This document shows positions 413-35,758 of a stretch of DNA of 64,000 nucleotides, in pieces; position 1 is the stretch's first letter; each line of letters starts with the position of its first letter. The notes under the pieces were generated by a model. The model searched no databases, had not been told where the DNA came from, and was given only the letters and a program-made list of their open reading frames with translations. Origin of the DNA: Stenotrophomonas hibiscicola ATCC 19867 (GTDB taxonomy: Bacteria; Pseudomonadota; Gammaproteobacteria; Xanthomonadales; Xanthomonadaceae). Location: contig NZ_KB907498.1 in NCBI RefSeq assembly GCF_000382065.1, forward strand, positions 812,714 to 876,713, read 5' to 3'. The translations under genes and the position numbers were made by a program.

Positions 413-904
413 CTATCTCTCCGCTTCGGGGTAATCCATTGCTTGGTACCTCCCATCGATCTCCCATCGGCACCAGGCATACGGATACTCTCCCACGCAG
501 CTCGCCAAGTTCGCCCTGACCGGGTTGGCGACGATGTACATCGCATGGCGAAACAGTGATTCTTCAGAACGCATGGCGTGATCGTGATAGCTCGATTGCC
601 AAAATGGTCCTGTCTTACCCAGCATGCGGTTGATCCGCAATGCACTGCTCGATTTGAAGCGTTGCATGATGTAGTCCAGCGAGAACGCACGGATCTCCAC
701 AAGCCAATGGATGTGGTCCGGCATGACCACATAGGCAAGTGAGTGCGTCAGGCCATCATCATCAATGCGACGGAACACATCCATCACCTCCTGTGCCGCA
801 GTGGCATCATCGAAGTAGCGTCGACGTTCCTGGGTGACGGTGGTCAGGATGTAGGATTGCCCGATCCGGGAATGACGGCCAAGGCGTAGGCGTGCGCGGT
901 TCAT
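413..904 (-). CDS. REP-associated tyrosine transposase (RAYT, IS200/Y1-like)
   Basis: A 163-residue single-domain Y1 HUH transposase of the REP-associated type. The HUH metal-binding motif is visible in MPDHIHWLVE near residue 62, and the expected catalytic tyrosine in SSYHDHAM near residue 105. A conserved YIVANPVRA segment follows. Family members bind and cleave REP palindromes as single-stranded DNA and are thought to spread them in the host genome; they are usually one per genome and domesticated rather than mobile. Here the gene sits between two oppositely oriented REP arrays (291-412 and 1018-1143), a strong contextual match. The ORF is intact, so it is probably functional. No terminal inverted repeats of an ordinary insertion sequence are seen. 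Confidence 0.92.
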   Translation of the reverse strand: MNRARLRLGRHSRIGQSYILTTVTQERRRYFDDATAAQEVMDVFRRIDDDGLTHSLAYVVMPDHIHWLVEIRAFSLDYIMQRFKSSSALRINRMLGKTGPFWQSSYHDHAMRSEESLFRHAMYIVANPVRANLASCVGEYPYAWCRWEIDGRYQAMDYPEAER

Positions 905-6800: not shown

Positions 6801-6826
6801 GTGCCGACCAACGGTCGGCACCCACC
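6801..6826 (+). repeat. single REP element
   Basis: One copy of the palindrome with arms GTGCCGACC and GGTCGGCAC plus the CCACC tail, identical in core to the array beside the RAYT gene. Confidence 0.9.
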
Positions 6827-6868
6827 AAAGCAGAATGCCGTTCCAACAGCTCGCGGGAAATTGTCGAA

Positions 6869-7128
6869 GGCGGGGTGGCTCAGGTTGCGGGGGCGTGAGC
6901 GCCATGGGCCCGAGGCATGCCTCGGACGGGTTGGGCAGGACGCCCAACCCCGGTCTTGCCGTGTGCGCAGGACAGCGCACACGAGCAAGCGCGACCGAGG
7001 CTACATGGGTGAGGGCGCTTTGCTTGCGAAGCACTGCTTCGCAAGCGCCCGAAACCACAGCCGCCAGCGGCTGGGCCGGGCCCCGGAGGGGGACTTGCGC
7101 CGTCCCCCGCAACCTGAGCCACCCCGCC
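6869..7128. repeat. 260-bp hairpin-rich element bounded by a perfect 25-bp inverted repeat
   Basis: The stretch 6865-7210 has no supported gene. The 25 bases at 6869-6893 are the exact reverse complement of 7104-7128. Between them lie several further hairpins: 6910-6925 (CCGAGGCATGCCTCGG), 6930-6948 (GTTGGGC/GCCCAAC), 6961-6982 (GTGTGCGC/GCGCACAC) and 7022-7046 (GCTTGCGAAG/CTTCGCAAGC). It could be a MITE-like mobile remnant or a structured RNA. No ORF inside looks real. Confidence 0.75.
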
Positions 7129-7210
7129 TCCCACGGGAAGCCAGCTTTTGACGTTGCCGTTGACGTTGATTCGGCAGCTGCCGGGCGCAGCCCGGCCGTA
7201 TCATCCCCTC

Positions 7211-34380: not shown

Positions 34381-34578
34381 ATGAACACCCATCGCTGCGG
34401 TTTGCGCCGCAGCAGAGAAAATGTATCGATTGCCTCCATGGCGGCCGGTGCGTGGGGATCGACAGATCCGCCAGGCCTTCTTCTCGATGGGAGTTCGTTT
34501 GCCTTGGTACGCCAACCCGCACCGTCCGCCACCTTCACTCCGGAAGGTGGTCCTATGCCAGTGAGGGTTTCGCCATGA
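34381..34578 (+). CDS. possible small hypothetical protein
   Basis: A 65-residue ORF, MNTHRCGLRRSRENVSIASM at the N terminus, ending TPEGGPMPVRVSP. Its stop overlaps the next start as ATGA (34575-34578), which suggests translational coupling. Third-codon GC is lower than in neighbouring genes and no clear ribosome site is seen, so it may be a recent acquisition or not real. Confidence 0.35.
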   Translation: MNTHRCGLRRSRENVSIASMAAGAWGSTDPPGLLLDGSSFALVRQPAPSATFTPEGGPMPVRVSP

Positions 34579-35683: not shown

Positions 35684-35758
35684 TGGTGGGCGGTACAGGG
35701 ATCGAACCTGTGACCCTTGCCGTGTGAAGGCAATGCTCTACCGCTGAGCTAACCGCCC
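35684..35758 (-). tRNA. tRNA-Val (CAC)
   Basis: A 75-nt cloverleaf with encoded CCA. The acceptor stem GGGCGGT pairs with ACCGCCC, the T arm is CAGGTTCGATCCCTG, and the anticodon loop TTCACAC between TTGCC and GGCAA gives anticodon CAC, which reads GUG. It has its own strong promoter and terminator. Confidence 0.95.

Follow-up and report, generated by a model that had tools for sequence, protein, structure and literature searches.

The 64,000-nucleotide stretch of Stenotrophomonas hibiscicola ATCC 19867 DNA analysed here, referred to as the window, contains a 260-base element that raises the question of what a strongly paired, gene-free sequence between two genes is and what it is kept for. 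The sequence-only reading had described perfect 25-base inverted arms 210 bases apart, at least four inner hairpins and more structure than chance would give. The arms (6869-6893/7104-7128) are indeed exact reverse complements separated by 210 bases; with two mismatches allowed they extend to 31 nt (6863-6893/7104-7134, 94%). The RNA fold of the 260-nt element reaches -192.6 kcal/mol versus -129.8 +/- 5.8 for 200 dinucleotide shuffles (z -10.9), and five terminal hairpins are predicted in it (Table 1), bearing out both the hairpin count and the excess of structure. The palindrome at 6910-6925 is paired elsewhere in this fold and forms a hairpin when other copies are folded. As had been stated, no convincing gene lies inside the element, the open reading frames that span it having the look of GC-rich chance frames. 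The element sits between divergent genes: on its left a short minus-strand ORF (ATG 6726, 69 codons read), and on its right the gene of a LysR-type regulator (ATG 7211). No sigma-70-like promoter was found near it. The promoter-like hexamer TATCAT (7199-7204) lies shortly 5' of the LysR ATG, and the regulator transcript may be leaderless. An Rfam search of the window element returned nothing useful, and matches to eukaryotic microRNAs in the Rfam searches were set aside as reflecting the long stem.

Table 1. Parts of the window copy, its flanks and the terminal hairpins of its predicted fold (window coordinates).
Feature	Positions	Strand	Remark
P1 stem, 5' arm (25 bp, perfect)	6869..6893	+	other copies have different arm sequences, still paired
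P1 stem, 3' arm	7104..7128	+	
Core, 5' half: junction and 5' side of hairpin P3	6894..6907	+	aligned with basic copies
Module A, replacing the P3 loop: two hairpins and palindrome 6910-6925	6908..6988	+	
Core, middle: P3 3' side, joiner GACCGAG, P4 5' side up to ATGG	6989..7008	+	
Module B, replacing the P4 loop: hairpins 7022-7046, 7058-7073, 7082-7091	7009..7092	+	
Core, 3' part: bulge and 3' side of lower P4 helix	7093..7103	+	
5' flank hairpin, ACAG...CTGTC type, GGGA in loop	6844..6866	+	from alignment
3' flank: CCACGG(G)AA and TTGACG/GTTGCC-type hexamer tract	7129..7179	+	from alignment
GC hairpin GCCGGGC-GCA-GCCCGGC at insertion edge, adjoining TATCAT	7180..7196	not assigned	
REP-like palindrome upstream	6801..6821	not assigned	missing from empty sites
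Terminal hairpin, loop AGGAC (6937-6941)	6928-6950		predicted fold
Terminal hairpin, loop AGGACA (6969-6974)	6960-6983		predicted fold
Terminal hairpin	7022-7046		predicted fold
Terminal hairpin	7058-7073		predicted fold
Terminal hairpin, loop GGAG	7082-7091		predicted fold

Rather than standing alone, the window element represents an enlarged copy of a repeat dispersed through its genome. Searched with the element as query, its own genome (4.42 Mb in 13 contigs) yields 75 aligned pieces, few of them near full length and many comprising the left part only, the right part only, or the ends with a short middle. These pieces resolve into a basic unit and two optional inserts, modules A and B. Stem to stem, the basic unit measures about 102-108 nt and consists of a 52-nt core on a stem (P1) of about 25-34 bp. 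In the window copy, the 5' half of the core (6894..6907) ends in ATGG, where basic copies show the loop ATGGAT, and module A is lacking in basic copies and in same-site orthologues; the window copy has no ANGGAN hexaloop, and shows the loops AGGAC, AGGACA and GGAG instead. The alignment indicates that the conserved unit is wider than the 260 bases first described, since most aligned copies of the genome share the 5' ACAG/CTGTC hairpin (6844..6866) and, alongside the unit, the 3' flank with its tract of TTGACG-type hexamers (7129..7179).

A covariance model built from 14 basic copies gave 136 matches, reduced to 118 places by removing 18 opposite-strand duplicates by hand. With the 29 module-bearing copies listed (7 with both modules, the window copy included, 11 with A only and 11 with B only) and less 3 overlaps, this makes at least 144 copies in 96 clusters, a lower bound in that scoring covered 150 of 5019 candidates; beyond these 144, the register of basic copies holds at least one more (L099:2201-2308). 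All 46 two-copy clusters are divergent, their partners standing back to back 103-265 bp apart, and the remainder comprises one minus-plus-plus cluster and 49 single copies. REP-like palindromes occur between the partners of divergent pairs. Copies also lie within ~250 bases of contig ends (the starts of C3, C5, C9 and C12 and the end of C8), where the repeat may break the assembly of this genome (G000). The SMAG/REP sequences of S. maltophilia are dispersed palindromes of the same genome, often beside the element. REPs are described as 20-40 bp long with GTAG at one end (PMC3733652), and the element has neither the GTAG tetranucleotide nor the 20-40 bp palindrome format. The claim that it is unlike the surrounding SMAG/REP units thus holds as to kind, yet the element is itself a dispersed repeat.

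To describe the basic form, 105 basic copies of this genome were located via their arms and set in one gapless register; they were oriented by CANGG(A/G)NG, and 13 more palindromes of similar size that lack this motif look REP-type by eye. In its core the basic unit forms a three-way junction from which two hairpins rise, both ending in a hexaloop ANGGAN: P3, with 5 bp and the loop ATGGAT, and P4, with a lower helix, a 5-nt bulge, a 3-bp upper helix and the loop ANGGAY. Across the 105 copies the P3 loop counts are A105 T104 G105 G104 A104 T105, and those of the P4 loop are A104, N (T50 G41 A11 C3), G105, G104, A104 and, at the last position, C77 T24 G2 A2; in other genera the P3 loop varies at its N positions too. 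The A and GGA of the hexaloops hardly vary while the N positions do, a conservation that is partly a search condition, as copies were oriented by the GGA motif and both R2 and the genome-scan pattern include loop letters.

The pairing is conserved more firmly than the sequence of the arms. P1 (25 bp) has 2492 of 2625 cells Watson-Crick, 51 G-T and 15 A-C in the 105 copies, and grouping its arms at 8 of 50 differences yields 24 clusters, of which the four largest (34, 21, 15 and 13 copies) together cover 83 of the 105. Among 86 distinct cores of this genome, 99.5% of cells are paired versus 80.0% in shuffled controls, and double changes occur in 14 of 17 pairs, with covariation in the lower P4 helix as well; the covariation score is 0.499, versus 0.155 shuffled and at most 0.105 slid. 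The corresponding values for 33 cores from 29 other genomes, two of these cores being from one congener, are 98.8% paired and a score of 0.615 versus 0.165. RNAalifold, run without a given structure, recovers the same helices, adds two covarying pairs at the P3 base, and joins the two end bases of the P3 hexaloop as an invariant A-U. Folds of single copies keep P1 and usually P3; P4 is often rearranged and often not the optimum. At the P3 base, adjacent A-G and G-A occur in 47 and 45, respectively, of the 105 basic copies.

A functional RNA strand tolerates G-T pairs, which its complement would show as A-C. P1 pairs 7-25 of 70 non-redundant elements from other genera comprise, on the GGA strand, 1194 Watson-Crick, 76 G-T, 10 A-C and 50 other pairs (G-T versus A-C, p 1e-13), after exclusion of 62 of 132 rows that were redundant or cut or had under 13 Watson-Crick pairs out of 19. 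Distinct events in the own genome number 36 G-T, 14 A-C and 62 other (p 0.0026 for G-T versus A-C). The outer stem stays paired despite locus-specific sequence, with G-T in excess of A-C, which argues that RNA (or ssDNA) of the GGA strand is under selection. G-T is a well tolerated mismatch in DNA hairpins too, and a DNA hairpin of the GGA strand could show a similar bias. Of the natures first considered for the element, a structured RNA is strongly supported, by covariation in its own genome and in other genera and by the preference for G-T on one strand; a single copy without conserved pairing is contradicted by the at least 144 copies and the covariation. Base composition of the outer P1 is also uneven in other genera, the 5' arm having G 0.36, T 0.28, C 0.23 and A 0.13 and the 3' arm being correspondingly C/A-rich.

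By its core, the element is best classed as an expanded copy of a gammaproteobacterial dispersed repeat of the YPAL/RU-2 type. YPAL/RU-2 is a 168-bp palindromic repeat of Yersinia (PMC2229807, PMC2759123) described, like the repeat here, as intergenic, multi-copy and, from its filled and empty sites, mobile (PMC2229807). Its core aligns with 44 of 48 positions identical and one gap (score 74 versus at most 28 in 100 shuffles), and has both hexaloops (AAGGAT and ATGGAT), the same joiner and the same 3' segment; ungapped anchoring gave 37/52 versus 31 in shuffles, the gapped alignment being the better test. The outer parts published for YPAL/RU-2 are not seen here, the flanks differ by eye, and its 168-bp length is not matched by a basic unit of about 102-108 nt; the repeat here, in turn, has a long perfect P1, and the published sequence lacks modules A and B. 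Copies of YPAL are reportedly positioned close to stop codons. Here, the 3'-side neighbour of the 144 copies is a convergent gene for 82 (gene end a median of 90 bp away) and a co-directional one for 59, with none found for 3, counts that are approximate in that genes were called by a simple GC3 rule; 18 of 27 copies in other genera likewise have a convergent 3'-side gene, approximately, with genes taken as longest frames. Any orientation rule relative to genes is weak. Target duplications of YPAL are given as variable, from 3 to 26 bp, and a review states that YPAL might influence the stability of upstream transcripts (PMC2229807).

Two Rfam families bear on this relationship. Ysr224 (RF02770) matches the own genome 110 times, always under its gathering score (best 45.7 versus 70); 108 of these matches fall on the strand complementary to mapped copies, two lie elsewhere, and no match shares the strand of a copy. 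This family models the strand opposite to the GGA strand, its consensus being, by eye, the complement of the RU-2 core. Its best match (45.7 bits, G000:C2:442511-442610) lies outside the mapped copies and is perhaps a diverged copy. Ysr224 copies are reported as transcripts with differing RNA-seq profiles in Yersinia ruckeri, the text available stating no strand (PMC12112432). TwoAYGGAY (RF01731) has, by name, two AYGGAY loops, like the two ANGGAN loops here, and is described with CsrA binding proposed from motifs and with two tandem G-A in a stem (PMC4333381), the latter resembling the adjacent A-G/G-A at the P3 base of some basic copies. It scores 21.7-32.2 in the stretches searched versus a gathering score of 43, and no match at that score was obtained in 20 loci, 19 of them from other genera.

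Comparison of the window's locus across related genomes implies that the repeat moves. Intergenic segments were obtained from 26 of the 30 loci returned. Nine have an empty site of 76-78 bp (L187, L189-L191, L193-L195, L198, L201); L188 and L199, which hold other sequences of 101 and 130 bp, and L192, which holds a REP, are likewise free of the element, and L186 has a zero-length segment. The basic form occupies the orthologous site in eight (L180-L185, L197, L200), the A-only form in L179 and the A+B form in three (L175, L176 and L174, the window copy), and L178 retains a broken remnant. P1 differs among these orthologues, with changes on both arms. In L180 the left and right P1 arms are of two different arm types and mismatched, as if two copies had recombined. 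The TATCAT 5' of the LysR start is kept in filled sites and in nearly all empty ones, which suggests that the element probably lies upstream of the LysR promoter. The proposal of a non-autonomous mobile unit is supported in part, by dispersal and by empty orthologous sites; the arms do not behave like ordinary transposon termini. Further copies are many, as anticipated, but at the window site, the only one inspected, no accompanying target duplication is evident by eye.

The repeat is widespread in the class. A 64-position core model run on 369 sampled Gammaproteobacteria genomes (E <= 1e-4) matches 66 of them, in 58 of 271 genera, and many matching genomes reach 14 copies, the number scored per genome, and hold at least that many. 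Among 398 sampled genomes of the phylum (E <= 1e-5), 26 match, all of the same class, in a sample for which the share of non-matching genomes outside the class is not given. A pattern scan of named genomes returned at least 118 stretches, those listed including Stenotrophomonas, Lysobacter, Methylomonas, Cellvibrio, Idiomarina, Aliidiomarina, Marinobacter, Thalassolituus, Natronospirillum, Chromatiales, Legionellales and others. Core and loops persist across genera while the P1 sequence differs from element to element, the outer arms having a mean identity of 0.31 versus 0.28 expected by composition; P1 has a median length of 30 bp, and the stop rule used ends 9 of 70 stems at 4-5 bp. Neighbouring pairs within 500 bp in other genera are divergent in seven cases and convergent in none, one partner being decayed in two of the seven (L305, L322), and tandem copies are found at four loci (L166, L216, L314, L315). 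The decayed Chromatiales copy (L322:571-795) has a P3 insert of its own, parallel to module A, with the hairpins GTGC-AGGA-GCAC and GGGC-AGGAC-GCCC at the module A position. A search of phages and plasmids with one basic copy, which tests that copy's arm type best, gave no match.

The two ANGGAN loops of the basic unit match the recognition hexaloop of RsmE/CsrA. Structures of RsmE with RNA are reported to show a hairpin with an ANGGAN hexaloop in which N is variable; the SELEX site is given as RUACARGGAUGU, mostly in six-nucleotide loops, and CsrB as having CAGGA(U/A/C)G repeats located in loops or in single-stranded stretches (PMC7652899). The P4 variants UAC-ANGGAY-GUA are close to the SELEX site, and the module A hairpin GGGC-AGGAC-GCCC contains CAGGACG, an instance of the CsrB repeat. 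Very stable stems may be unfavourable for CsrA (PMC7652899); the P3 stem of the repeat has 5-7 bp. The own genome has one csrA match, an intact gene whose product, read from an internal Met, keeps L4, R6, R7, V42 and R44. Among these, R6, R7 and V42 are contact residues. L4 and R44 are CsrA residues named in the review (PMC7652899). A csrA gene is present in 61 of 66 element-bearing genomes versus 252 of 303 others, compared by eye, a weak association, and no csrA match was found in one genome with nine element copies (G196, 98% complete). RNAs of the CsrB/RsmZ/RsmU type, which sequester CsrA and have GGA in hairpin loops as here, are sRNAs of one or few loci; the repeat, unlike these, is dispersed, and its basic unit combines two sites with a long stem. 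For RsmU of Xanthomonas, an origin from an mRNA 3' end is reported (PMC7694677).

Judged by covariation and alignment, the element is a strongly selected, RNA-like repeat of YPAL type. We consider it reasonably probable, and the most likely reading, that its RNA is a ligand of CsrA/RsmA, and infer that in this organism the repeat is transcribed, binds RsmA and exerts a sponge or cis effect. The plus-strand RNA would be a scaffold for this dimeric RNA-binding protein: P1, a long stem of free sequence, would hold up the three-way junction, and each of the two short hairpins would expose an ANGGAN hexaloop, their GGA motifs being separated by 20 nt, which would let a single CsrA dimer hold the two together. 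With both loops replaced in the window copy, module A would bring two CAGGA-loop hairpins of CsrB type and module B one GGA-bearing loop. Possibly, copies are transcribed by read-through or from nearby promoters and then either sequester RsmA or mark the host transcript for control that depends on RsmA. Several findings weigh against this reading: the mixed orientation of copies to neighbouring genes, the lack of a sigma-70-like promoter near the window copy, the modelling of Ysr224 on the opposite strand, the weak csrA association with its exception G196, the stem length of P3, the A-U that RNAalifold places in the P3 hexaloop, the single-copy folds that rearrange P4, and the absence of an ANGGAN hexaloop from the window copy.

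The same repeat could be a MITE-like DNA element moved by a transposase, its structure selected as an ssDNA hairpin by a Y1/HUH enzyme, RAYT or TIRYT. High copy number and empty sites fit such an origin, as do the divergent pairs (46 of 46 two-copy clusters), which are like REPINs, the REP-like palindromes between pair partners, and the sharing of arm types by groups of 34, 21, 15 and 13 among the 105 copies, a pattern to be expected of arms that travel with the unit; in S. maltophilia, two families of TIRs linked to TIRYT genes are also reported, one of them self-complementary and close-spaced (PMC3733652). However, none of 32 Y1 transposase loci carries a convincing element in flanks of at most 1.5 kb (best E 0.014, threshold E 0.01), these loci having been drawn from 40 matches in 20 genomes and including all five of the own genome, and 4 of the 20 element-rich genomes lack a Y1 match. 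With a P1 sequence that is free across genera, unlike a recognised terminal repeat, and an ANGGAN with variable N left unexplained, we regard this origin as unlikely. A MITE with conserved ends was ruled out by the arm identity across genera (0.31 versus 0.28 expected), and a TIRYT/RAYT origin is not supported, Y1 transposases not being found beside the element in the loci tested. The window itself has a Y1_Tnp (RAYT-like) transposase match (572-853, minus strand, 50 bits), with no element in its searched flanks.

Protection or termination of neighbouring transcripts by the stem, as proposed for YPAL and without involvement of CsrA, would suit the 82 of 144 copies with a convergent 3'-side gene ending a median of 90 bp away, the 18 of 27 such copies in other genera, and the suggestion that YPAL might affect upstream transcript stability (PMC2229807). 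A barrier, however, does not need two precise ANGGAN loops, and the window copy lies between divergent genes, upstream of the LysR promoter-like site and not at a 3' end; a 3'-end device is, in our estimation, quite unlikely. A small non-autonomous retroelement, whose RNA is recognised in trans by a reverse transcriptase or other protein with the GGA loops as handle, would combine RNA-type covariation with a sporadic, multi-copy distribution, and is in keeping with the lack of a consistent orientation to genes and with the variable 3-26 bp target duplications of YPAL (PMC2229807). That the loops match the CsrA consensus speaks against it, and we hold it to be very unlikely.

A broader form of the CsrA/RsmA ligand reading, which we put forward only tentatively, is that of a mobile, Gammaproteobacteria-wide repeat with a CsrA clamp as payload, a mobile layer of the Csr/Rsm system. 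If so, each insertion would give the genome one more CsrA ligand, two-site or, with modules, CsrB-like; a selfish or domesticated element would in this way set the free level of a global post-transcriptional regulator, individual transcripts could come under its control through insertions, and modules that swap loops would alter how many sites a copy offers. Dispersed palindromic repeats have mostly been regarded as DNA elements or as stabilisers of mRNA; here, one strand of such a repeat has a conserved structure with two sites matching the recognition loop of a known global regulator. Should CsrA bind, YPAL-like repeats would be candidate CsrA antagonists in cases without a known CsrB-type RNA, and the question of why such repeats are retained would have a concrete answer. 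The literature searched, which included few subscription papers, yielded no statement that YPAL or any dispersed repeat binds CsrA.

Two minor observations concern other sequences. Many copies occur in metagenome bins (CAMDWI, CAMBTO; L216, L226, L227, L278, L302, L305 and others), and the Klebsiella pneumoniae titles of the CAMDWI/CAMBTO bins that carry copies may be wrong. Elsewhere in the window, a C4 antisense RNA match (34434-34536, 49.7 bits) lies ~1.2 kb from a tRNA (35687-35758), a region that is perhaps a P4-like element or prophage.
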